A stretch of DNA of 64,000 bases from Thalassotalea fonticola (GTDB lineage Bacteria > Pseudomonadota > Gammaproteobacteria > Enterobacterales > Alteromonadaceae), in contig NZ_CP136600.1 in assembly GCF_032911225.1 (NCBI RefSeq), forward strand, positions 2,914,001 through 2,978,000. Direction: 5' to 3'. A model generated the notes under the pieces. That model was not told the DNA's origin, made no database searches, and saw only the letters and a list, made by a program, of their open reading frames with translations. Both the position numbers and the translations under genes were made by a program. The stretch's first letter is position 1; every line of letters begins with the position of its first letter. Shown here piece after piece: positions 48,905 to 64,000 of this stretch.

Positions 48905-49013
48905 AAAGTCTTCTCTCATTTTTATAGTATTGAGCCTAAACTTGAATGGTAAATAATTCAAATTAATGATGCTTGCAGGTATAATACCGACAAACAAATA
49001 CTCGTATAAGATT

Positions 49014-50513
49014 ATGAAATATAAGGATCTACGCGATTTTATTGCTCAGTTAGAAAAAATTGGCCAGTTAAAACGTATTAAACAACCCATATCAACTAAT
49101 TTAGCTATGACTGAAATTAGCGATCGCACGTTGCGCGCAGAAGGTCCGGCTTTGCTATTTGAAAACGCAATCGGTTACGACATGCCGGTGCTTACTAATT
49201 TATTTGGTACGCCTGAACGTGTTGCATTAGCGATGGGACAAAAGGATGTTAGCGAACTTCGTGACGTTGGCAAGCTCTTGGCCATGTTAAAAGAGCCTGA
49301 GCCGCCAAAAGGCTTTAAAGATGCTTTTGATAAGTTGCCGGTATTTAAGCAAGTATTAAATATGCCAACTAAGCGTTTGAAAAAAGCGCACTGTCAGGAG
49401 GTGATCATATCTGGCGACGAAGTAGATTTAACCAAGTTACCAATCCAAACTTGCTGGCCAGGTGATGTTGCTCCTCTTATTACTTGGGGCTTAACAGTCA
49501 CACGAGGTCCTGAAAAAGAACGTCAGAATCTAGGAATTTACCGCCAGCAATTACTTGGTCCAAACAAAATTATCATGCGTTGGTTATCACATCGCGGCGG
49601 CGCGCTGGATTTTGAAGACTTTAAAAATAAATTTCCTGGTGAGAAGTACCCTGTTTCAGTCGCTCTTGGTGCCGATCCGGCAACAACATTAGGCGCCGTA
49701 ACCCCAGTGCCTGACTCTTTGTCTGAATATGCCTTTGCAGGCCTGCTCCGTGGCAGTAAGACCGAAGTCGTTAAAAGCATCAGTAACGATTTAGAAGTAC
49801 CTGCTACCGCAGAGATTATTCTTGAAGGTTATTTAGATCCAGATGAAATAGCTCCGGAAGGCCCTTATGGTGATCATACTGGTTATTATAATGAAGTTGA
49901 TAACTTTCCAGTAATGACGGTTACTCATATTACGCATCGTAAAGATCCAATTTACCACAGTACCTATACAGGCCGTCCGCCTGATGAACCAGCAATACTC
50001 GGTGTGGCCTTAAATGAAGTATTTGTGCCTATTATCCAAAAGCAATTCCCTGAAATTGTGGATTTTTATTTACCGCCTGAAGGTTGTTCTTATCGTATGG
50101 CAGTAGTCACCATGAAGAAACAATACCCTGGTCATGCAAAACGTGTGATGATGGGCGTTTGGTCGTTTTTACGACAGTTTATGTACACCAAGTTTGTTAT
50201 TGTTTGCGATGACGATGTAAATGCCCGTGATTGGAAAGATGTAATTTGGGCTATGACTACTCGAATGGATCCGGCTAGAGATACTGTATTAGTAGAGAAT
50301 ACCCCGATTGATTATTTAGATTTTGCTTCACCAGTTTCAGGCCTAGGTTCAAAAATGGGTATGGATGCCACCAATAAATGGCCTGGTGAAACAACCCGGG
50401 AATGGGGTGAACCAATCACTATGACCGATGAAATTAAACAGCATGTGGACGAAATTTGGGACGAATTAAACATTTTCGGACTAAACTTAGATCATAACGA
50501 ACCACAAAATTAA
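49014..50513 (+). CDS. ubiD: 4-hydroxy-3-polyprenylbenzoate decarboxylase UbiD
   Basis: 499 residues. prFMN-dependent decarboxylase of ubiquinone synthesis. The ATG at 49014 gives the standard [22 protein letters not shown] start. Family parts include [18 protein letters not shown], the prFMN-binding region with [19 protein letters not shown], and [11 protein letters not shown]. Needs a UbiX partner that is not in this window. Followed 23 bases later by fre, the E. coli order. Confidence 0.96.
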
Positions 50514-50536
50514 TAGACCAACTTAAGAAATAAATA

Positions 50537-51232
50537 ATGAATACCATTAGTTGCCAAGTGCAATCATTAACCCCGTTAACTGACAATGTTTTTCAAGTGT
50601 TGTTAAAGCCAGAGCAGAACGTGAGTTTTGCTGCAGGTCAGTACCTAAACTTTGTCATGAGTAGCGATGATAAACGTCCATTTTCAATTGCTTCAAGTCC
50701 AGATTGTGAGCTAATTGAGTTACAAATTGGTGCATTTGCTGCCGACAGTTGGGCTATGCAAGTAATTGATCATGTAAGAAACAACAAAAACGTTACTATT
50801 GAAATGCCGGGCGGACACGCGCAGCTTCGCACAGAAAGCCTACGACCAATTATTCTTTTAGCTGGTGGTACAGGTTTTTCTTATATCAAATCTATTCTTA
50901 GCGATTTAGTGAAGCGTAAAGTACAACAACCGGTACTAGTGTATTGGGGTCTTCGAGATCCAAGTGCCTGTTATCAGTTAGATGAAACTCAGGCAATGGT
51001 TGAACAACTAGCACATGGCCAGTTTATGCCGGTAGTTGAAACTCCTAATGATAACTGGCAAGGGCGGGTAGGTAAGGTTCATGAGCCTTTATTACATGAT
51101 GTGATCAGCCTAGAGCCGTACGATATTTATATGGCTGGTCGTTTTGATATGGTTGGTTTTTTACGAAGCGAATTTATTGAACACGGCGGCATTAAAGAAC
51201 ATATGTATGCGGATGCATTTGCGTTTATCTAG
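50537..51232 (+). CDS. fre: NAD(P)H-flavin reductase
   Basis: 231 residues, like E. coli Fre (233). The FAD/FMN-binding motif is RPFSIASSP at about residue 50; the nucleotide-binding loop is LLAGGTGFSYIKSIL at about residue 110, and the C-terminus is DAFAFI. Reduces free flavins and ferric complexes in the cytoplasm. Directly followed by a tandem repeat. Confidence 0.93.
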   Translation: MNTISCQVQSLTPLTDNVFQVLLKPEQNVSFAAGQYLNFVMSSDDKRPFSIASSPDCELIELQIGAFAADSWAMQVIDHVRNNKNVTIEMPGGHAQLRTESLRPIILLAGGTGFSYIKSILSDLVKRKVQQPVLVYWGLRDPSACYQLDETQAMVEQLAHGQFMPVVETPNDNWQGRVGKVHEPLLHDVISLEPYDIYMAGRFDMVGFLRSEFIEHGGIKEHMYADAFAFI

Positions 51233-52561: not shown

Positions 52562-52974
52562 AATAGTACCCTTCAAATAAAACCGTAATTACATCGTATT
52601 TTTATATCGACAGCCAAAATGTTCTGCGTTATCGATATTCGACTTAAAACTAAATTTGTTATTGTTAATATTCGATAATGATAATAAGAAGGTGAGAGAA
52701 TATTGTGAAATCAGTTAACTTAATCGGTTAATAAGTGGTTCTTATTTTAGTAATTCTACATTTAGATTAACATCTTGTTTACAAATGATATTTTGATGAT
52801 TTACAGACAACTAAAAACGATAAAAAACGGCTGTATTTGCGGATATTAGTAAGTCTTATCCAACAGTAAATCATTCTAATTAGACGTCTTATAAGCAAAC
52901 ATGGATAATTGACTTCCTATGCGCTGAAATAGCACTTTAATACCAATTTGGTATACAGCAACGGTAAATTCACT
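52562..52974. other. Divergent promoter region of porin and TauE/SafE genes
   Basis: 413 bases, AT-rich. Contains the palindrome ATACCAATTTGGTAT at 52940-52954 close to the right-hand gene. No other clear motif was found. Confidence 0.5.
52940..52954. repeat. Minimal ATACCAA-T-TTGGTAT palindrome
   Basis: Perfect 7-bp inverted repeat with one central base. It lies 20 bases before the TauE/SafE start codon, the shortest member of the ATACCA...TGGTAT group. Confidence 0.6.
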
Positions 52975-53703
52975 ATGTTCAATGATCCCAACCTCCTTAT
53001 AATTGCCATAGTGGCTGTCACATTGGGCGCGGCGCTACAAAGCTTGGCCGGGTTTGGTATTGGAGTGATAGCTGCGCCGATTTTAGTGATGATAGATCCT
53101 GCATTTATTCCGGCGCCAATCCTGATGATGGGATTAGTATTGTCGCTGTTAAACACCATTCACTATCGCCAACAATTAAAGTTTGGCAATATTGGCGTTG
53201 CTTTATTAGGTCGTATTACCGGCTCCTTATTGGCAGTAATGTTATTATTATTATTGCCGCCAGTATTTTTTACGCTATGCTTTGCCTTATTTATTATGCT
53301 GTGTGTGTTCTTAAGCTACAGTCACTTTCACATCAAGTATTCGCCACGAAATTTATTAATTGGTGGATTTTTTTCCGGGCTGGCGGGTACCACAACTTCG
53401 GTAGGTGGCCCGCCGATAGCAATGGTCTACCAAAATAGTGAACTCAACTCTACGCGGGCCGAACTTGGCTTATTTTTTCTTATCGCAACCCTTATATCAC
53501 TCACCTTATTGCTCATTTCGGGAAATTTCAGTTATTATCAACTGCAGCTTACTCTGCCATTGTTACCGGCAATATTTCTTGGCTTTGGCATATCATTGTG
53601 GTTAGGTAAGCGCTTCAAGCCGCATTACCTAAAACCTGCTATAGCCTTACTTTCATTAACTTCCAGCGCCATTATCGTAATGCAGTTAGTCAATGATTTA
53701 TAA
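52975..53703 (+). CDS. TauE/SafE family (TSUP) membrane carrier
   Basis: 242 residues, about eight transmembrane segments. Two TauE/SafE repeats: GAALQSLAGFGIGVIAAPIL near the N-terminus and FFSGLAGTTTSVGGPPIAMVYQN in the second half, the family signature. Members export sulfonates or sulfite-like anions; the substrate here is unknown. The ATG at 52975 is preferred over a TTG at 52948 that lies inside the palindrome. Convergent with the MFS gene, 15 bases apart. Confidence 0.82.
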   Translation: MFNDPNLLIIAIVAVTLGAALQSLAGFGIGVIAAPILVMIDPAFIPAPILMMGLVLSLLNTIHYRQQLKFGNIGVALLGRITGSLLAVMLLLLLPPVFFTLCFALFIMLCVFLSYSHFHIKYSPRNLLIGGFFSGLAGTTTSVGGPPIAMVYQNSELNSTRAELGLFFLIATLISLTLLLISGNFSYYQLQLTLPLLPAIFLGFGISLWLGKRFKPHYLKPAIALLSLTSSAIIVMQLVNDL

Positions 53704-55209: not shown

Positions 55210-55584
55210 TTACGGCACAGCGGCATAAGCCACAACTTCACACAGCATTTCTTCCCGTGCAAGGCCGGCAACAATCATTGCAGCACGGTTTGGATATGGT
55301 GCCTGAAAATATTCAGCATAGACTTTATTAAAAACAGCTAACTGAGAGCGTTCGGTCACATAAATCAACACTTGAGTTACGTCATCCATAGTTAGCTCAG
55401 CAGCTTCAATAGTGTGTTTGAAGTTGTCCATGGTTTGGCGAGCTTGTGCTTCAATGCCGCCATCAACAACCTTGCCTTCTGCGTCAATTGGAATTTGCGC
55501 CGTCGACAAAGTGCCATTGGCAATAATGGCCCACTCCAGCGGTGCTTTCGAGGCAAATAATTCTGTTTTTACAGGGGTTTTCAT
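55210..55584 (-). CDS. RidA family protein (second paralogue)
   Basis: 124 residues from the ATG at 55584. RidA fold, with the conserved arginine in PYPNRAAMIVAGL and the acidic CEVVAYA end; the N-terminal half is less like RidA proper. Probably acts on an enamine/imine or acylated intermediate of the pathway encoded by its operon. It follows the BCCT gene after 79 bases that contain a hairpin. Confidence 0.82.
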   Translation of the reverse strand: MKTPVKTELFASKAPLEWAIIANGTLSTAQIPIDAEGKVVDGGIEAQARQTMDNFKHTIEAAELTMDDVTQVLIYVTERSQLAVFNKVYAEYFQAPYPNRAAMIVAGLAREEMLCEVVAYAAVP

Positions 55585-55626
55585 ATTCGTTTCTACTCTA
55601 TTAAGGTAATTATAAATAATGGGGTA

Positions 55627-55648
55627 AGTAGCCACGTTCGTGGCTACT
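55627..55648 (-). other. Intercistronic hairpin between BCCT and RidA genes
   Basis: Perfect 10-bp stem AGTAGCCACG / CGTGGCTACT (55627-55636, 55639-55648) with a 2-base loop. No T-run follows on the coding (minus) strand, so it more likely stabilises an mRNA end than stops transcription; on the opposite strand TTTT follows. Confidence 0.6.
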
Positions 55649-55663
55649 TTTGGCTAAATCAGC

Positions 55664-57226
55664 TTATAACCCTTGTTCTTTAGCCATTTTTATGGCGATT
55701 TGCGGCGCTGTCCATAAGGATGGCAGTAACACTAATGATACTGGAACGGCTGTCACTACGATAAAGGATTGCAGTGCAGAAATACCACCAGAACCAATTG
55801 AAATTAACAGTGCTGCCATAACACCCATCATAATCCCCCAAAATACTCTAATTGAAGCTTGTGGGTGATCGGTACCTGTCATCACCATAGAGACCGAATA
55901 AGTCATCGAATCACCTGTGGTAGCCACAAATATGGTGGTAAGGATTAAGAATAATACTGAAATCAAGAAGCCCATTGGTAACTGTTCGGTAATCGCTAAC
56001 AACGCCGCGGGTAAATTGAAACCGGTAAATGGTTCTGAAATGACACCAGGAGTTGCCAATTCAAAAAACAAACCTGAACCGCCGACAATGGTAAACCAGA
56101 AACAAGTAATAATTGGCGCAACAATAGATATTAATAACACCATTTCACGAATCGTACGGCCGCGAGAAATACGTGCAACAAACATAGCCATTAATGGACC
56201 ATAACCTAAGAACCAGCCCCAAAAAAATACTGTCCACCAGTCTAACCAACCAGTACTGGCCCTAAAAGTCGCCATGGGAATGAATTCATTAAGATAAATG
56301 CCAAAAGAATGTAAATAGCTATCGATTATAAAGGCCGTTGGTCCCATTAATAGAATGAATAGCATTAACACTACCGCCAAGATCACATTGAAACGGCTCA
56401 GTATTTGAATGCCTTTAGTTACACCACTCACTGCAGATAAGGTATAGATACAGATCAAGCCAAATAAAATGGCTACTTGAGTAACATATGTGTCAGGAAT
56501 GCCGAACAGTTTTTCTAAACCAAAGCTCATTTGCAAACCAAGAAAACCAATCGGTCCTACAGTTCCGGCAACAACAGCCAGAACACAGCATGAATCAACA
56601 ATTGCACCAAACGCGCCAGTCATTACACGATCACCAAACACTGGGTATAGCAAAGTGCGAGGCTTCAGTGGCAGTCCTTTCTCGTAGTGCAAGTACATGA
56701 ATACAATGCCGGTTAAACTACCAAGAATGGCCCAGGCCAAGAATCCCCAGTGCATAAAGCTTTGTGCCAAAGCATTATACGCCGCATCAGTTGTACCTGT
56801 TTCACCACCAAATAACGGTGGCGGCGAAGTAAAGTGTGCCATTGGCTCAGCTGCAGCCCAGAATACACCGCCACCAGCAAGCAGCGTACACATGATGATA
56901 CAAATCCATTTAAAGGTGGTAATTTCAGGAGTTTTTAAACCACCTAAAACCACAGAACCGGTACGACCAACAGCAAGAAATATACCTATGACAAAAGTCA
57001 GAAGTAATAGTACCTGCCAGTAGGCGCCAAATATTTTAGTGGATGCGGCAAAAGCTGTATTTACCCAGCCAGACATCATCTCAATGTCATAAAGCGCCAA
57101 TATGGCAAATAACACCAGTACCCCGCCGCTGATTAAAAACACCGGCATATCGACACCTTCAAATAATTTACTTTTTGGCATTTCGACACCCCTATCGCTT
57201 ACGATCTCTTGTGTTGCACTATTCAT
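55664..57226 (-). CDS. BCCT family betaine/carnitine/choline-type transporter
   Basis: 520 residues, twelve transmembrane segments. The BCCT signature is clear: WWTVFFWGWFLGYGPLMAMFVARISRGRTIRE near residue 335, containing the aromatic substrate-box region, and GGVFWAAAEPMAHF near residue 123. Members take up zwitterionic quaternary amines with Na+ or H+. The ATG at 57226 follows GGGAG. It lies in an operon with catabolic genes rather than alone, pointing to nutrient uptake rather than osmoprotection. Confidence 0.93.
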   Translation of the reverse strand: MNSATQEIVSDRGVEMPKSKLFEGVDMPVFLISGGVLVLFAILALYDIEMMSGWVNTAFAASTKIFGAYWQVLLLLTFVIGIFLAVGRTGSVVLGGLKTPEITTFKWICIIMCTLLAGGGVFWAAAEPMAHFTSPPPLFGGETGTTDAAYNALAQSFMHWGFLAWAILGSLTGIVFMYLHYEKGLPLKPRTLLYPVFGDRVMTGAFGAIVDSCCVLAVVAGTVGPIGFLGLQMSFGLEKLFGIPDTYVTQVAILFGLICIYTLSAVSGVTKGIQILSRFNVILAVVLMLFILLMGPTAFIIDSYLHSFGIYLNEFIPMATFRASTGWLDWWTVFFWGWFLGYGPLMAMFVARISRGRTIREMVLLISIVAPIITCFWFTIVGGSGLFFELATPGVISEPFTGFNLPAALLAITEQLPMGFLISVLFLILTTIFVATTGDSMTYSVSMVMTGTDHPQASIRVFWGIMMGVMAALLISIGSGGISALQSFIVVTAVPVSLVLLPSLWTAPQIAIKMAKEQGL

Positions 57227-57285
57227 TTTACACTCCCATCAGATTAATTCTGCTTATTATGTGTTAAAGAATCCTTTTGATATGG

Positions 57286-58275
57286 CTACAGTTTGGGCTG
57301 TAGCGCATCATCCAGAAAATTCAGCCAGTTTAATCCCATAATTTTGGCTACTTCGTTATCACTAAACCCTCGTGTTTGCAGGCCTTTGGTGATATTTGGA
57401 AAATCACGACTATCTTTAAACCAGGACAAAGATCTTGGCCAATCGGCATCCGACTTAGAGCCCTCGCCATAATCCATGTCTTTTGACCAACGGCCATTAC
57501 GCATCCACTCAAGAATGGAAACCGGTTGTTCCTGACACAAATCGGTACCAATACCGATATGGTCAATGCCCATCAAGTCGGCGGTATTTGCCACCATGTC
57601 GCAAAATTCGTTCAAACTACAATCCGGGCCATTTTTAAGATGGAATGGGTATAAACTAAAACCCAAAAGTCCACCGGATTCTCCTAACGCTTTCAATACA
57701 GTGTCTGATTTGTTGCGTTTGGCAGCATGAAAACTACTAGGGTTGGCGTGTGAAATAACGATAGGACGTTCTGATATTTCTATCGCTTCAAGCGTGCTGC
57801 GTTCGGCGCTGTGACTCATATCAACCACCATGCCGACACGGTTCATCTCTTTAATCACCTGACGACCAAAACGGGTTACGCCACTATCAACTGCTTCATA
57901 ACAACCACTTGCTAACAAGCTTTGGTTGTTATAAGTCAATTGCATGATCATCAGGTTTAGCTCACGCATTACCTCAACCATGCCAATATCATCTTCGATT
58001 GCAGAACAATTTTGCGCACCAAACATGATGCCAACTTTGCCGAGCTGTTTGGCAAGGCGAATATCGTCAGCACTTTTAACCGGCATGATCAAATCACTGT
58101 TCATTTCAAAGTGGCGATTCCATTCACTGATCCGTAATAACGTTTCACGGATCTGCTCGTGGTAAACAATGGTTACATGAACCATAGTTACGCCGCCTTG
58201 TCGAAGTTGTTCAAAAATAGTCCGGTTCCAATTGGAGTACTGCAGACCATCTATAACAATTAAATCGTTATGCAT
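57286..58275 (-). CDS. M19 (membrane dipeptidase)-like protein with altered metal site
   Basis: 329 residues, without a signal peptide, so cytoplasmic. It has the renal-dipeptidase TIM-barrel fold: VVDMSHSAERS, VISHANPSSFHAAKRNKSD, DHIGIGTDLCQ and NWLNFL. However, the usual DGHND motif at the N-terminus reads DGLQYSN, and the bridging Glu position reads GAQNCS. It thus keeps the later histidines and the Arg/Asp but lacks three usual zinc ligands, and probably catalyses something other than dipeptide hydrolysis. A GGAGGG site precedes ATG at 58275; 14 bases after the aldehyde dehydrogenase gene. Confidence 0.82.
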   Translation of the reverse strand: MHNDLIVIDGLQYSNWNRTIFEQLRQGGVTMVHVTIVYHEQIRETLLRISEWNRHFEMNSDLIMPVKSADDIRLAKQLGKVGIMFGAQNCSAIEDDIGMVEVMRELNLMIMQLTYNNQSLLASGCYEAVDSGVTRFGRQVIKEMNRVGMVVDMSHSAERSTLEAIEISERPIVISHANPSSFHAAKRNKSDTVLKALGESGGLLGFSLYPFHLKNGPDCSLNEFCDMVANTADLMGIDHIGIGTDLCQEQPVSILEWMRNGRWSKDMDYGEGSKSDADWPRSLSWFKDSRDFPNITKGLQTRGFSDNEVAKIMGLNWLNFLDDALQPKL

Positions 58276-58289
58276 AACAACACCCTCCG

Positions 58290-59732
58290 TTACGCGCGGA
58301 TGTATGTGGTTTTTACCACGGTATAAAATTCTTTTGCGTAGGTTCCTTGCTCACGCGAACCGAAGCTTGATTCTTTACGGCCGCCAAAAGGTACGTGATA
58401 GTCAGTGCCAGCTGTTGGTAAGTTAACCATCACACAACCGGTTTGAGCACGACGTTTAAAGTCTGTTGCATACTTCAATGACTGAGTACAAATACCACCG
58501 GTTAAGCCATAATTGGTATCGTTCAGGGTAGCTAGCGCTTCTTCATAATCTTTTACTTTAATCACACAAGCGATAGGCGCAAAGGCTTCTTCACGGTTAA
58601 TAGTCATATCGTTTGTGGTTTCAGTAAACAATGCAGGCTGTAAATAATAACCTTCTGTTTCTTCAGTGATCACTTCACCACCAATCAGCAGCTTGCCACC
58701 TTCATTTTTAGCAACCTCAAGATACTTAAGGTTTTGTTCCATTTGACGACCATCAGCAACCGCACCAATGTGTACACCTTCTTTTAACGGATGACCAACA
58801 ACCAGTTGCTTCATTCGTTCTACGACGGCATCAACAAAGCGATCATGGATGCCTTCGGTAACAATTAATCGTGAAGAGGCTGTACATTTTTGTCCGGTAC
58901 CAAAAAAGGCACCACCAACGGCACACTCAACTGCATTGTCTAAATCGGCGTCATCAAGTACAACCAAGGCATTTTTACTGCCCATTTCCAACTGACATTT
59001 CACCAAGTTAACTGCAGTAGCTGCTGCAACTTTTCGACCAGTCTCTAAAGAACCGGTAAATGTTAAGGCGTTAATCTTGCGAGAGTTAATTAATAAATCA
59101 CCAACTTCAGCACCAGGCCCCATTACCAGGTTAAACGTACCGGCAGGCAATCCTTGACGAGAAATGATTTCTGTAAGAGCCCAGGCACTTGCTGGTACCT
59201 GATTAGCAGGTTTAAATACGATGGCATTACCGTATGCTAGTGCCGGTGCAATTTTCCATGCGCCAGTTGCCGTTGGAAAATTCCATGGGGTAATAATACC
59301 TACCACACCAACCGGCTCTCTACGGGTTTCAATTTCAACACCTGGGCGCACAGAGTCCGCGGTTTCACCCATTTGACGTAACACTTCTGCTGCGTAATAG
59401 TGGAAGAATTGACCTGAACGATAGGTTTCACCAACACCTTCAGCGAAAGTTTTGCCTTCTTCGCGTGCCAGTAATTTACCTAATTCATCTTTACGGGCAA
59501 TAAGCTCATCACCAATTGCCATTAACACAGAATAACGTTGTTCTAGGCCACTTTTTTGCCATTCAAGCTGGCCTTTTACTGCAGCATCAATCGCCGCTTC
59601 GGCCTGTGCTTTATCAGCTTGTGCATAATGACCGATAGTATCGCTTAAATCTGCTGGGCTAATATTCGCTATTGCGCTAACACCTTCTACCCACTCACCT
59701 GCGATGTAATTTGAAAAAATTGATTCCGACAT
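58290..59732 (-). CDS. Aldehyde dehydrogenase (2-oxoglutarate semialdehyde dehydrogenase-like)
   Basis: 480 residues. NAD(P)+-dependent oxidation of an aldehyde to an acid. Marks are [21 protein letters not shown], the general-base Glu in QLEMGSKN, the catalytic Cys in [11 protein letters not shown] and the tail [17 protein letters not shown], which resembles the glucarate/hydroxyproline 2-oxoglutarate semialdehyde dehydrogenases. The start is set by GGAGG just before ATG at 59732; the ATG four codons earlier is part of that ribosome site. First gene of the four-gene operon, behind the candidate LysR-controlled promoter. Confidence 0.9.
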
Positions 59733-59759
59733 AAATACCTCCATAAAGTAATTGGACTC

Positions 59760-59765
59760 ATTATA
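59760..59765 (-). promoter_or_regulatory. -10 box of the aldehyde dehydrogenase operon
   Basis: Read on the minus strand this is TATAAT, 27 bases before the start codon. No good -35 hexamer precedes it, as is common for activator-dependent promoters; the shared 35-bp element starts 15 bases upstream. Confidence 0.6.
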
Positions 59766-59780
59766 GGAAGCATGCTTTAA

Positions 59781-59815
59781 TAATAAAAATTAATAATTGA
59801 TATCTTTCGATAAGG
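59781..59815. promoter_or_regulatory. Candidate LysR-type operator, copy 1
   Basis: 35 bases that match 61015-61049 at 28 positions, including an identical first 14 bases and the dyad TATC-N4-GATA (59801-59812). It lies between the divergent aldehyde dehydrogenase and lysR genes, close to both start codons, as expected for activation of one and autorepression of the other. Confidence 0.6.
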
Positions 59816-59825
59816 AACACTTATC

Positions 59826-60734
59826 ATGCTACCTGAATTTAAAATTGCTCAGCTAAGACACTTCGTCTGGGTCGCTGAATTAAAAGGGTTTCACAATGCT
59901 GCCGAGAAAGCTTGCCGTACCCAACCAGCAATTTCTTTATCAATAAGAGATCTGGAAAATAAATTAGGAACCAAGGTATTTGAAAAACGAAATGCTAAAA
60001 CCACGATGACCGAACTGACTCCATTTGGTAAACATTTTTTACCTAAGGCAAAAGAATTAATCGCTCATCATGACAGTATTTCTCAGGACATGGCTTTGCT
60101 GCGTGAACATAAAGCCGGTCATTTACGCCTAGCTTCAGTGCCATCAATTGCCTGCAGAATGTTGCCAGAATTATTATCAAAATTTGCCGAAAATTTGCCA
60201 GAATTGCATATCAGTTTTTACGATGATAACTCAGAGGCAGTGTTAAGAAAGGTAGAGAAACAGCAAGTTGATATTGGTATTTCCAGCTTACCGCTTGGAC
60301 ACGAACATGCTGATATTTTATTCACGCCAATTTGGCAAGATCAGATCGGCGTAGTTTGTCGTAATGATCATCCGCTGGCAGATGCCGCTGAGGTGCACTG
60401 GAAAGAATTGCGTAAACGGCGTTTGATCAGTAACGGCACTTCACGCTTACTTGAAGACACCGAAGCCGAGCCCCTGCTGGGCGATTCACAATTCTATATT
60501 TCCAATATGCTGTCGTTAACTGCAATGCTTGAAGCCGGGCTGGGGATCACCACGTTACCTTGGTTTGCATTTCCGCAAGAGAGTACAAAGCTGCGCTTTA
60601 TTCCACTAAGTGCGCCAAAAGTACTGCGCCAAATAGGTATTGTACAACTTAAGAATAAATCACTATCGCCAGCGGCTCAGGCTCTTGCAGATTTTATTAT
60701 TGAACAAAATAGTAATGAACAGGAGTCTAGTTAA
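59826..60734 (+). CDS. LysR family transcriptional regulator
   Basis: 302 residues. Winged helix-turn-helix at about 8-66 (LRHFVWVAELKGFHNAAEKACRTQPAISLSIRDLENKLGTKVFEK), then the periplasmic-binding-protein-like effector domain (HLRLASVPSIACRMLPELL...). It is divergent from the aldehyde dehydrogenase gene across 93 bases that contain a candidate operator. It probably senses the substrate or an intermediate of the pathway encoded on both sides. Confidence 0.93.
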   Translation: MLPEFKIAQLRHFVWVAELKGFHNAAEKACRTQPAISLSIRDLENKLGTKVFEKRNAKTTMTELTPFGKHFLPKAKELIAHHDSISQDMALLREHKAGHLRLASVPSIACRMLPELLSKFAENLPELHISFYDDNSEAVLRKVEKQQVDIGISSLPLGHEHADILFTPIWQDQIGVVCRNDHPLADAAEVHWKELRKRRLISNGTSRLLEDTEAEPLLGDSQFYISNMLSLTAMLEAGLGITTLPWFAFPQESTKLRFIPLSAPKVLRQIGIVQLKNKSLSPAAQALADFIIEQNSNEQESS

Positions 60735-60781
60735 GACAGTATAAAAGGTAATATGAACCAGTCGATAAACTGGTTAAACCT

Positions 60782-60961
60782 TTAGTTGTAACCGCGTACA
60801 TAACACGATGTGATCACATCGCTGTAGTTAGTTTCATAAGTCGATTTTAGTTTTTGTTCGACGACAAGTTTTATCTGACTGTTAGTTTTGCTGACAGCCA
60901 TCTCTTCTCGCTCTGAACGACTATGGCTTGTGCAGTTACTATCATTGGCTATTGAATTCAT
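60782..60961 (-). CDS. Small protein of 59 residues, unknown function
   Basis: ATG at 60961, stop at 60782. The ribosome site AAAGAGGTAGATC is excellent, and a TATTAT -10 box lies 32 bases upstream behind a 35-bp element shared with the aldehyde dehydrogenase promoter. The protein is hydrophilic, with no membrane segment; it begins MNSIANDSNCTSHSRSERE and ends TSCYVRGYN, with two cysteines. It resembles no family I know. It faces the lysR gene's end and may act as a regulator or accessory factor of the neighbouring pathway. Confidence 0.65.
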   Translation of the reverse strand: MNSIANDSNCTSHSRSEREEMAVSKTNSQIKLVVEQKLKSTYETNYSDVITSCYVRGYN

Positions 60962-60993
60962 GATCTACCTCTTTTCTGTTACTAATCCCCCCT

Positions 60994-60999
60994 ATAATA
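60994..60999 (-). promoter_or_regulatory. -10 box of the 59-codon gene
   Basis: Minus-strand TATTAT, 15 bases downstream of the 35-bp element, the same spacing as at the aldehyde dehydrogenase promoter. Confidence 0.5.
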
Positions 61000-61014
61000 G
61001 TAAGTAAGCTCATA

Positions 61015-61049
61015 TAATAAAAATTAATTAAAAATATCTTTTGATAAAT
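61015..61049. promoter_or_regulatory. Candidate LysR-type operator, copy 2
   Basis: Matches 59781-59815 at 28 of 35 positions in the same orientation; contains TATC-TTTT-GATA (61035-61046). It begins 54 bases upstream of the 59-codon gene's ATG; copy 1 begins 49 bases upstream of the aldehyde dehydrogenase ATG. Confidence 0.6.
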
Positions 61050-61199
61050 ATTGCTTATCTAAATCGTTAAGCCTAAAAAACGCCATAGGAGACAACATAG
61101 ATTCGATCAATATTTATCCTAAAATATATTCCACAATAAAACAAAGGTTATATAAGAGCATTTAAATCATATAGTTATCAGCACTTAATAAATTTTACT

Positions 61200-61211
61200 T
61201 ATCAGCTGATA
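61200..61211. promoter_or_regulatory. TATCAGCTGATA palindrome
   Basis: Perfect 12-base palindrome about 196 bases upstream of the plus-strand operon. Its half site TATC is the same as in the two 35-bp elements. Confidence 0.35.
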
Positions 61212-61406
61212 GACCTTTCTGACTTGTATGAAATGATGTTTTAGGTCAAATATATTAGCACTTTTAAGTGACCGGCTGTTTTGCTTGTCACTTGTTTTGA
61301 TAAGCAAATACTCAATTTGCTAGTCTCTGAATATAACCAATGATTAACTATCATTGTGAAAGCGAATTCAGACACTAGAATTTGTATAGCACAAAGGAGC
61401 ATTAGA

Positions 61407-63116
61407 ATGACTACACATGCCGCTATCCATACATCACTATGGGGAGACAATGCATTACCATTACGTCCCGCCGGTCAAGTGATGAACCTGGAACGCTTAG
61501 GTGCATATCACCAAAGCCGCCTGAGCTTTATGCGCACCTTGGTTCGCCGTATTTTTCGTGAACGGTGGAGCATTGAACCGGCAATTTTTGAACTGGATAA
61601 GGATGGCTACGGTACTGTAGTCTATGAAGTCGATGCCCCTAATGGCATGTTCAGTTTTGTATTATTCTCAGATTATTTATCGGCTGATGAGCGAAATGAT
61701 CGCGTAATTGCGACAAAATGGGACCTTACCATGGCCCTGGTAGAAGGCAAAGTTGATCGTCAATATGTAGAACAATTACGCCTAAATGTGCCTAAACAGG
61801 AAGCTGGTCGTGTTGACTCTAGAGTATTTGTTTTATCACGAGCCAATCGTAGTTCGCGAAACTTTGGTTATGTTGTCGATCAATTAGCTTCAGGACAGCA
61901 ACCGGATATCAGCAAAATTTCCGAAGTGGGTTACCTCTATCGTACCACCGCAGTCTACGGCAGTGGTAAACTTGGCATGGCCGACTGGGAAAAAGTACAT
62001 AGCAAACATAAAGACTTTTCCCGCCCATTTGCCGGTGAAATGTTTGTATGCCTGATGTTACGTAACTTCAGTTTATTGCAGGTAGAACATATTGCTCGTC
62101 ATCGTTCACCAGAAACCTTTGGCGCAATGCAGCCAGAAATAAAGCGTTATTTTGGTATTGGTAATTCCACTGGCTTAGGTATGGCACCATATTTGGTCAA
62201 TCACCCATTACTGATTAACCAATGGGTTGAGATGCGTGAATTGGCCTTAGCCCGGATCAGAACTTTAGGAGGTATCGACAAGCAAGTGCTCGCAACACTG
62301 AACGAACTGATTGAGCGTTCAGCCCAACATACCCTTGAAACCATTACCGAAGACGACTGGCAAACTCAAAATAACAAAGTTGTTATCGAAGATATGACAA
62401 AACTGGGGGGCTTCATTGAAACAGGGTTTAACAGTTGGAATGAACTAGTTGCCTTTAGTGAGCAGCAGTGTTCTTTACAAGGTCAGGAAATGCTGGTTTC
62501 CATTATGTTGGAAATGCATCCTGAGTTGGTAGATGAATTAGAAGATTTCCATTGTTCAGATGAACAATTAGACCTTGATCCCTTGATGCCTACCTCAGAA
62601 CTTAAAGACATTATTGAACGTCGTTATGAGTGGGCATTAGCAATCGATTTTGACGCTGAAGGTGCCCGTGAAACTTATTGGTATCGCTCTGAAGAAAAAA
62701 TGGAACCGCGCCTGGGCAGTGTTGCTGACATTGAAGGTAAAAAGAAACAAATGGCACTAGGTGTCGGTTATGCAGTGCGAAAATGTTATAACCACTTGTC
62801 AAACTATATAGAGCAAAATCCTGGTCACACTACCGCTCGATTTATGGTGGCACACCCCAAATTACGCGGCATTGTTCGTCGCATTCAAGGAATGGATCGC
62901 TGCATCTACGGCGATATCCAGGCTAATTTACTCGATCGAGATGTGTTACCTATGCATCTACTCCGTTGTAAGCTGGCGTTTTTTGGCGTAAGTAAATTTG
63001 ATCCACGTTCTCGATTATGGGTACGTAACACCATGTTTCAGGGCGCACCGCTACTGGAAGATATTGGTAAACCGTTTGTTGATGACTGGTTTATGCCATT
63101 AGCACCAAAGCAATAA
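61407..63116 (+). CDS. Large cytoplasmic protein of unknown function
   Basis: 569 residues from the ATG at 61407, which has a strong AAGGAG site; an upstream extension lacks one. No signal peptide or membrane helix. Conserved-looking stretches are SFMRTLVRRIFRERW (about residue 38), GVGYLYRTTAVYGSGKLGMADW-like region (EVGYLYRTTAVYGSGK, about 185), LLQVEHIARHR and YFGIGNSTGLGMAPYLVNHPLL (about 250), and ARFMVAHPKLRGIVRR (about 485). I recognise no catalytic motif with certainty. It is followed 10 bases later by a DUF3726-like gene, so the two probably work together in the neighbouring catabolic pathway. Confidence 0.8.
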   Translation: MTTHAAIHTSLWGDNALPLRPAGQVMNLERLGAYHQSRLSFMRTLVRRIFRERWSIEPAIFELDKDGYGTVVYEVDAPNGMFSFVLFSDYLSADERNDRVIATKWDLTMALVEGKVDRQYVEQLRLNVPKQEAGRVDSRVFVLSRANRSSRNFGYVVDQLASGQQPDISKISEVGYLYRTTAVYGSGKLGMADWEKVHSKHKDFSRPFAGEMFVCLMLRNFSLLQVEHIARHRSPETFGAMQPEIKRYFGIGNSTGLGMAPYLVNHPLLINQWVEMRELALARIRTLGGIDKQVLATLNELIERSAQHTLETITEDDWQTQNNKVVIEDMTKLGGFIETGFNSWNELVAFSEQQCSLQGQEMLVSIMLEMHPELVDELEDFHCSDEQLDLDPLMPTSELKDIIERRYEWALAIDFDAEGARETYWYRSEEKMEPRLGSVADIEGKKKQMALGVGYAVRKCYNHLSNYIEQNPGHTTARFMVAHPKLRGIVRRIQGMDRCIYGDIQANLLDRDVLPMHLLRCKLAFFGVSKFDPRSRLWVRNTMFQGAPLLEDIGKPFVDDWFMPLAPKQ

Positions 63117-63126
63117 GGAGAGTCCT

Positions 63127-63864
63127 GTGAATATATCAATGAATGAACTAAAAGCGTCCCTGAAACGATGTTTTGAAGCCAGCGGCTACTTTGTCGGAAA
63201 TTATGAAGACGCAGCGAGTATGGTGTTGTGGTTAGAAAAGCACGGTCTCAATGGCTTAAATGAACTTAAACATGCATTACCATACGTAGGCGATGATTTT
63301 GATAAACCGTTAAGTAATGTAATTTATGAAGATAGTACCTCAGCAATTATCGATGCTCATCATCGCAGCGCGCTCAATTGTATTGCCGCTGCCGTTGATT
63401 TGGCTCATGCCAAAGCATTGGAAAGTGGTATCGCTACAGTTACCGTGCATAACTGCCATAATCGCATGTTTATCCTCAAAGCCTTAACAGACAGAGGTCG
63501 AGCAGGTATCAGTGCTGCAGCCTATTGGAAAAATGGCAGTACCACGGTTACCGAACACACCGCAGCAATCCGCTCAGGACAACGTTACCCGAGTTACAGC
63601 GAAGCCGTGGCGAACTTGTCAAATAATGACGATGACAAACAAGCACTGACGATTATATGTAGCTCGAGAGTCGATTTAACCTCATCCTTGCAAAATGCCA
63701 ATAGTACGTTTATCAGCCCAAAGCAGGTTGAGAAGAACAAGGAACATACTGTTGAATATGGCGTAGAGATCGATGAAGACGTTTGGGCCGAGATAAACCG
63801 TATTGGTACCGGCGTTTTAGTGGAAAACACTGAACGTTCTCGACAAGACGCTGGCGGGCGATAA
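63127..63864 (+). CDS. DUF3726-like protein
   Basis: 245 residues. Starts with GTG at 63127 behind AAGGAGAG. The N-terminal SMNELKASLKRCFEASGYFVGNYEDAASMVLWLEKHGLNGL pattern matches my recollection of DUF3726 proteins (a short helical domain of unknown role). The middle (AAAVDLAHAKALESGIATVTVHNCHNRMFI) resembles a sugar- or nucleotide-binding alpha/beta fold with repeated histidines. The C-terminus is acidic. Function unknown; second gene of the plus-strand operon. Confidence 0.65.
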   Translation: MNISMNELKASLKRCFEASGYFVGNYEDAASMVLWLEKHGLNGLNELKHALPYVGDDFDKPLSNVIYEDSTSAIIDAHHRSALNCIAAAVDLAHAKALESGIATVTVHNCHNRMFILKALTDRGRAGISAAAYWKNGSTTVTEHTAAIRSGQRYPSYSEAVANLSNNDDDKQALTIICSSRVDLTSSLQNANSTFISPKQVEKNKEHTVEYGVEIDEDVWAEINRIGTGVLVENTERSRQDAGGR

Positions 63865-63891
63865 TAAGCTCAAATGCTTTTGATAACTAAT

Positions 63892-63920
63892 AGTTAAGCC
63901 TTGCTGAGCAAGGCTTAACT
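63892..63920. terminator. Perfect 14-bp palindrome after the DUF3726-like gene
   Basis: AGTTAAGCCTTGCT and its complement (63892-63905, 63907-63920) around one base. No T-run follows on either strand; the structure lies only 14 bases before the next gene and may reduce rather than stop read-through. Confidence 0.5.
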
Positions 63921-63934
63921 TATAGAGCAAAGGC

Positions 63935-64000
63935 ATGAATATTCTTAATAGCATTCCAGTCGAAAATTCACTTTCAAAGGTTAAACTGCATCAGGTGCAA
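63935..64000 (+). CDS. Start of an unidentified gene (cut by window end)
   Basis: 22 codons from ATG at 63935, beginning MNILNSIPVENSLSKVKLHQ. A GAGCAAAGG stretch precedes it. The frame stays open to the window end. Too short to name. It probably belongs to the same operon. Confidence 0.45.
   Translation, partial: MNILNSIPVENSLSKVKLHQVQ

Follow-up and report, generated by a model that had tools for sequence, protein, structure and literature searches.

The described systems closest to the one reported here degrade N-methylated pyridine carboxylates. The tgn pathway for trigonelline is credited to Perchat et al. 2018, as cited in the excerpted text of PMC8269262; the same excerpts describe the isomer homarine as very abundant in the sea, report that R. 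pomeroyi DSS-3 grows more poorly on homarine than on trigonelline, and judge TgnA/B unlikely to open homarine for steric reasons. Another ring opener would then be needed. R. pomeroyi draws down homarine fast, according to an excerpt of PMC12817926. For homarine itself, Ferrer-Gonzalez et al. described a pathway in 2026 (Nat Microbiol 11:1531-1546, as cited in part of PMC13390433); the same part gives Mgd (N-methylglutamate dehydrogenase) a role in homarine catabolism and places tmaR homologues next to mgd in many cases. Here we describe a gene cluster of Thalassotalea fonticola that lies within a 64,000-nucleotide stretch (the window), positions 2914001-2978000 of a 4.9-Mb single-contig genome (NZ_CP136600.1). 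From its sequence and gene context, we consider it rather probable that the cluster has spread horizontally and serves the catabolism of an N-methylated pyridine carboxylate, in all likelihood homarine (N-methylpicolinate). Homarine is a nitrogen-ring compound made by plankton, and the cluster would let a marine bacterium take it up and degrade it.

Results

Gene content of the cluster

Genes in the window were checked by open reading frame (ORF) and Pfam/NCBIfam profile searches. Two adjacent plus-strand genes are central to our reading: UNK569 (61407..63116), which encodes an uncharacterized but conserved protein of 569 amino acids (aa), and a gene (63127..63864) for a 245-aa DUF3726 protein with a shortened Ldh_2 fold. 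A GTG codon upstream, at 61356, offers UNK569 an alternative start and would give 586 aa. On the minus strand lie genes for an aldehyde dehydrogenase (ALDH; 484 aa, 58290..59744), an M19 amidohydrolase-fold protein with substituted metal ligands (329 aa, 57286..58275), a BCCT carrier with an altered substrate-binding aromatic box (520 aa, 55664..57226), and a RidA-family imine/enamine hydrolase (141 aa, 55210..55635; PF01042, 76.5 bits). The plus strand also carries, in divergent orientation to the ALDH operon, a gene for a 302-aa LysR-type protein (59826..60734; PF03466/PF00126), likely the regulator of the cluster. All of these genes had been picked out in an earlier note on the stretch, and the searches bore them out.

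UNK569 and DUF3726 probably form one enzyme

UNK569 had no family match in Pfam at E≤0.1 or in NCBIfam at E≤0.01; an alignment of 77 UNK569 sequences contains 75 invariant columns. The predicted model is confident (predicted local distance difference test [pLDDT], 92.4; predicted template modeling score [pTM], 0.92), and its comparison with the PDB gave no match at E≤0.001 and none that was convincing. The DUF3726 protein scored 79.9 bits against PF12525, above the curated cut-off of 22.1 bits, whereas its score against the Ldh_2 profile, 33.3 bits over residues 3-117 only, lies below the cut-off of 38.8 bits. It has its fold in common with the Ldh_2 family of malate/lactate, ureidoglycolate and piperideine-2-carboxylate reductases, whose solved chains are mostly 330-360 residues long; DUF3726 is ∼100 residues shorter and lacks a mid-chain part, which we take to be the NAD-binding part of Ldh_2.

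The two genes overlap or are separated by at most 30 nucleotides (nt) at 89 of the 90 loci measured, that of T. fonticola included, with spacing taken from the nearest start codon, a choice that favors short gaps. In a Mesorhizobium they are fused and encode one 815-aa protein. Because of this natural fusion, UNK569 and DUF3726 are probably one enzyme or complex, and we propose UNK569 as the catalytic subunit of a ring-opening enzyme, with DUF3726 as its partner. Searches of the openly licensed literature found no paper that names DUF3726 and, among the papers listed, none that describes this cluster.

The gene set recurs across the proteobacteria

Searching a genome contig collection with a 12-sequence UNK569 alignment gave at least 574 relatives, from which the best 80 loci were kept, a set biased to close relatives. 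Together with 11 neighborhoods from a sample of the class these make 91 loci, and 20 more from a sample of the phylum bring the set to 111; all reading frames of the loci were searched with profiles, and a type-1 ALDH was called at ≥400 bits. The loci are related by descent, so the counts are not independent. UNK569 has a DUF3726-like neighbor at 90/91 loci; at the exception, L025, the contig stops 44 bases past the UNK569 match. Its other neighbors among the 91 are the M19 protein (82 loci), type-1 ALDH (66), LysR (61), BCCT (56) and RidA (42), and three of the nine loci that lack M19 (L037, L062 and L104) are cut off by contig ends. At the more distant phylum-sample loci the figures are 20/20 for M19, 10/20 for ALDH and 6/20 for BCCT. 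The co-occurrence of UNK569 with ALDH and BCCT genes, on which the earlier note had staked its proposal, thus holds on the whole, though not universally.

The gene set is found again in gamma-, alpha- and betaproteobacteria. Judged by gene content, this recurrence across classes is beyond chance, even though the loci share descent, and the cluster is real and strongly conserved. UNK569 occurs in 13/274 genomes of the class of T. fonticola (a count that takes in its own genome and one weak, partial match of 18 bits), in 29/398 genomes of the phylum (16 of the 29 in a single family), in 5/97 genomes of relatives and in 2/15 genomes of the genus, again with its own included. It is also present in 168 plasmid records, 6 of them typed as conjugative. 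The patchy distribution and the plasmid carriage fit horizontal spread.

The carrier and the aldehyde dehydrogenase

The BCCT protein scored 507.5 bits against the family profile PF02028 (cut-off, 27 bits). An aromatic box takes part in the binding of trimethylammonium substrates by carriers of this family. We compared this box in 58 cluster carriers (those above 350 bits, one per locus, from the 111 loci) with two solved proteins, 8zw8 (Trimethylamine transporter) and 8ybq (BCCT family transporter). In transmembrane helix 4 (TM4) the 58 carriers read HWGF[LM][AS]W and then L or V, against Y in 8zw8 and F in 8ybq; in TM8, all 58 have F and Y at positions where both solved proteins have W. The trimethylammonium-type TM4/TM8 box is thus matched by none of them, and the altered box suggests that the substrate is probably something other than a plain trimethylammonium compound.

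The ALDH (PF00171, 515.5 bits) found its best match among 45 NCBIfam families in NF042993, 2-oxoglutarate-semialdehyde dehydrogenase, at 488.8 bits, under the equivalog cut-off of 770. For the ALDHs of the window, Ruegeria TM1040 and Roseateles, the top two models were 2-oxoglutarate-semialdehyde dehydrogenase and 2,5-dioxovalerate dehydrogenase, all under cut-off. This type of ALDH also serves hydroxyproline breakdown.

The M19 protein has an altered metal site

M19 family dipeptidases have a two-metal site built from an HxD motif, a bridging Glu and two His residues. The cluster protein belongs to this family (PF01244, 278.9 bits; cut-off, 26 bits), and its Pfam match begins only at profile position 30. 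The sequence D-x-L-Q-Y stands near the N terminus in 28/28 aligned sequences, the window copy included. When it was aligned with the dipeptidase 5lx0 and read by eye, Gln88 took the place of the bridging Glu and Tyr115 that of an active-site His, while His155, His176, Arg187 and Asp245 were retained. Fold and family are therefore those of the membrane dipeptidases, whereas invariant L/Y, Q and Y replace the HxD motif, the bridging Glu and one His (on the ligand roles given above), and the two-metal site of active dipeptidases is not present; the altered metal site reported in the earlier note is real. The closest solved chain, 2i5g ("amidohydrolase"; E, 8.9e-83), starts DGLII, has no HxD and carries the same Gln and Tyr. 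We propose that the M19 protein serves the pathway as its amide/formamide hydrolase. A relative (37% identical) in Paracoccus TOH (L183, 7375-8966) adjoins a gene annotated as 4-vinyl reductase, and the annotation of that 17-kb stretch names no UNK569 or DUF3726.

Relatives of the cluster in tgn-like settings

We used the annotated cluster of Acinetobacter sp. PK01 (L164) as the tgn reference. In an Arenicella metagenome-assembled genome (L043), tgn-like genes end ∼280 bp before a run of ALDH, M19, UNK569, DUF3726 and Ldh genes; identities to the Acinetobacter proteins are 57% for AAS, 38% for the α/β hydrolase, 37% for TgnA, 54% for TgnB, 59% for TgnC and 47% for the GntR regulator, and counterparts of the CMD and SSADH genes were not seen at this locus. 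On plasmid pMc1284 of M. ciceri, a distant UNK569 (28% identity, 303 bits) and its partner (25 bits) lie within a tgn-like cluster whose CMD (50%), AAS (52%), TgnC-like ALDH (42%), α/β hydrolase (27%) and GntR (30%) resemble those of Acinetobacter; the 19.6 kb read gave no match to tgnA, tgnB or M19. Bosea has a similar tgn-like cluster that bears UNK569, with an α/β hydrolase and AAS. With tgnABC beside one copy, and tgn-like clusters in which tgnAB is not detectable, the context speaks for N-methylated pyridine carboxylates. M. ciceri and Bosea, where M19 was not detected, do have an α/β hydrolase, and this would be compatible with an amide-cleaving role for M19.

Neighborhoods with betaine carriers and N-methyl oxidases

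In Aminobacter and Roseateles, genes for LysR, ALDH, M19, UNK569, DUF3726 and Ldh are joined by a transporter annotated for glycine betaine, to which Roseateles adds sarcosine-oxidase genes, purU and folD. Shinella has LysR, ALDH, M19 and UNK569, followed by Ldh, an FAD oxidoreductase and a betaine ABC transporter. Carriers of the betaine type thus recur, as BCCT proteins or as ABC transporters annotated for glycine betaine (Aminobacter, Shinella and Roseateles). Ruegeria TM1040 combines Sox-like genes and an AraC-type regulator with LysR, ALDH, M19, BCCT, UNK569, DUF3726 and Ldh; four Phaeobacter/Aliiroseovarius records have a SoxA-like gene, 84-88% identical to that of TM1040, at ∼5-7 kb from UNK569 by coordinates. 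Among the 111 loci, an Ldh_2 enzyme was found at 18, SoxA-like at 6, DMGDH-like at 5, FdhA at 5, and MTTB and FdhF at 1 each. One locus (L080, 427-13402) has luciferase-like monooxygenase, aminotransferase, MTTB, DMGDH-like and M24 genes upstream of M19-UNK569-DUF3726-Ldh. A link to the molybdenum cofactor was considered and set aside: MoaA/TorA next to L041, a MobA-like gene in L044 and FdhF after the window cluster are single loci and not part of the core.

A second type of module

A UNK569-partner-M19 module lies beside an IclR gene in S. meliloti pSymB (L184, 6526-9972) and at L186, L220 and L221. The S. meliloti copy is accompanied by an ABC transporter, an aminotransferase, SSADH and two RidA genes; smb20383 may belong to it, and for that tag the literature gave only an expression note. 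These type-2 loci form a clade with other enzymes, so the UNK569 module is not tied to one substrate, and the type-2 module presumably acts on a different one. On a plasmid of the haloarchaeon Natrinema versiforme (L219, 6014-14264), UNK569 occurs with ALDH, an Ldh_2-like partner (36.2 bits) and BCCT. In a FastTree tree of 32 sequences, picked and labeled by context, the homarine-type, type-2 and tgn-like sequences form separate clades with support of 1.0.

We put forward, tentatively and with somewhat less than even confidence, that the UNK569-DUF3726 pair represents a new class of pyridinium ring-opening enzyme made of two subunits, and that the fold of UNK569 has not been seen before. It would have been recruited into at least three kinds of cluster (the homarine type, in which M19 is usually present; type 2, in rhizobia and others, where M19 adjoins IclR; and tgn-like, replacing TgnAB), and a relative would work in a haloarchaeon with an Ldh_2-derived partner, ALDH and BCCT.

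Other genes in and near the window

The earlier note had listed a further gene on the plus strand after DUF3726. There is one, for an FdhF/YdeP-family oxidoreductase (L002, 10128-12410, plus strand), and it starts just past the window end. A relative, 76% identical, lies near the cluster in locus L017. The 59-codon gene of that note (60782..60961, minus strand) is probably not a gene: it had no Pfam/NCBIfam match, and no homologue below E=1 among 111 related loci. A TauE/SafE-family permease gene (52948-53703) lies near the cluster, and its counterpart in L018 (12549-13283) is 39% identical to it. At 48966-51232 the window holds, in tandem, genes that we take by eye to encode a UbiD-like decarboxylase and a flavin reductase.

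Discussion

From the gene content, conservation, fusion, folds and operon contexts set out above, we infer the substrate, the reactions and the order of the steps as follows. The BCCT protein would import the zwitterion. UNK569 and DUF3726, as one complex, would attack and open the pyridinium ring, the job done for the isomer trigonelline by the TgnA/TgnB oxygenase. The ALDH would oxidize the ring-opened semialdehyde, and the M19 protein would hydrolyze the resulting N-formyl or amide bond, with release of formate. A 2-(methylimino)glutarate-like intermediate may then be handled by RidA, or by a full-length Ldh_2 reductase at loci that have one, to give N-methylglutamate or 2-oxoglutarate and methylamine, and Sox-like or DMGDH-like oxidases may demethylate last. 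Loss of ring carbon 6 from homarine and oxidation of carbon 5 would leave an N-methylated product of the 2-oxoglutarate type, in keeping with the kind of ALDH found and with RidA, Ldh_2 and the N-methyl oxidases.

Several observations weigh against this assignment. No cofactor site was identified in UNK569, and no redox cofactor motif is recognizable in it. Six homarine-type loci (L024, L041, L042, L091, L094 and L100) gave no match in the available stretch to M19, even at a weak threshold, nor to type-1 ALDH, BCCT or α/β hydrolase; M19 and the α/β hydrolase were therefore rejected as exclusive alternatives, since neither is found in these stretches or in Natrinema. The type-2 loci lack type-1 ALDH and have aminotransferase and SSADH genes in 2/4 cases. 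Peripheral genes are patchy (FdhA, 5/111 loci; FdhF, 1/111), and the proposed route does not account for the TauE-family gene at 12/111 loci. Over 398 genomes, 11 contained a SoxA of the L038 type (called at E≤1e-220, with no search made for canonical mgd) and 29 contained UNK569, while 1 (G319) had both, against ∼0.8 expected. That SoxA is nearest to the Sox-like neighbor of the Acinetobacter tgn cluster (58% identity) and shares only 34% with the one of TM1040, so the result has little bearing on the TM1040 type. The T. fonticola genome has no L038-type SoxA; its one SoxA, at 37% identity, lies in a separate island, and its one full-length Ldh_2 is located away from the cluster.

The substrate might instead be a saturated betaine or an N-methyl amino acid (proline betaine, hydroxyproline betaine, N-methylproline or a carnitine-like compound), with UNK569, DUF3726 and M19 acting on an open or saturated N-methyl compound that has no aromatic ring. 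Betaine-type carriers, recurring Sox/DMGDH-like oxidases and Ldh_2 enzymes, MTTB-family genes near some copies and the hydroxyproline connection of the ALDH would all suit such a substrate; we nonetheless find it unlikely, since tgnABC beside one cluster, and the pair itself in tgn-like clusters without detectable tgnAB, point to pyridine rings, and the aromatic box differs from the two solved carriers in 58/58 BCCTs. Demethylation of glycine betaine and dimethylglycine, with the M19 gene as counterpart of the dipeptidase gene beside dgcAB, is very unlikely. Excerpts of PMC12093977 place a dipeptidase gene and a hypothetical gene before dgcAB in Vibrio natriegens and P. aeruginosa and give for DgcA the NADH:flavin oxidoreductase domain with which the Shinella neighborhood ends, and 2i5g, the closest solved M19 chain, likewise has no HxD; but the ALDH would be left without a role, and T. 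fonticola has a separate island (L185, 9315-19999; 4.553-4.564 Mb) with a Rieske oxygenase (GbcA-like by eye), SoxA and, as named by eye, other sox genes, glyA and BCCT. A sulfonated zwitterion such as taurine betaine, with TauE exporting sulfite or sulfoacetate, is likewise a very unlikely substrate: the TauE/SafE gene is near the cluster in the window and at 12/80 genome-collection loci, yet the 11 class-sample and 20 phylum-sample loci gave no TauE match, and TSUP carriers move many anions.

A further alternative concerns the enzymes and not the substrate: UNK569, DUF3726 and M19 could be a module for handling or activation (for example, hydrolysis or isomerization of a ring-opened product), the ring being attacked by an enzyme encoded elsewhere. 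The lack of a recognizable redox motif in UNK569, the ∼100 residues missing from the Ldh_2 fold of DUF3726 and the different peripheral enzymes of type-2 clusters lean this way. We see in it only a minor chance, since the profiles identify no oxygenase among the other proteins of the window cluster, the pair occurs in tgn-like clusters where TgnAB was not detected, and no TgnB-like protein was found in the T. fonticola genome, in a search that had no positive control.

We therefore favor an N-methylated pyridine carboxylate. The earlier note had suggested zwitterion import, N-methyl chemistry, an ALDH of the 2-oxoglutarate-semialdehyde type and ring opening by the two proteins of no known function; the NCBIfam models and the tgn, Sox and betaine-carrier contexts lend support to each, and homarine, one of its example substrates, is by context now the best single candidate. 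Its description of the system as undescribed is probably wrong, given the 2026 homarine pathway cited in the excerpt of PMC13390433. The UNK569 family is present in Rhodobacterales and in a SAR116 genome (L095). The published operon is reportedly homABCDER, with N-methylglutamate and glutamate as products, and is said to occur in Rhodobacterales and SAR116. The cluster probably corresponds to that pathway.

What continues to stand out is the pairing of UNK569 with DUF3726, a candidate for a new ring-opening enzyme that has relatives in other pathways. The identity of the ring-opening proteins for homarine would supply a marker for the flow of its carbon and nitrogen. If the pair does open pyridinium rings, this would be enzyme chemistry on a scaffold that has no recognized solved relative or cofactor site, and the same module hints at uncharacterized substrates in rhizobia, roseobacters and haloarchaea.

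The published homarine pathway, as far as the citing excerpt (PMC13390433) describes it, resembles the cluster in its environmental bacteria and in its substrate, an N-methylated pyridine carboxylate as proposed for the cluster; Mgd takes part in it, and some copies of the cluster have adjoining N-methyl-oxidase-like genes. With the tgn cluster of Acinetobacter sp. PK01 the likeness lies in an isomeric substrate class, an aldehyde dehydrogenase step and an adjoining Sox-like oxidase with folD and purU; UNK569-bearing relatives share more, namely AAS and the α/β hydrolase (M. ciceri and Bosea) and CMD and the TgnC-like ALDH (M. ciceri only). The window ALDH, in contrast, is 31.5% identical to TgnC, and none of the seven proteins of the window cluster matches the TgnA/TgnB, AAS, CMD or α/β hydrolase families; it has UNK569, DUF3726 and M19 instead.

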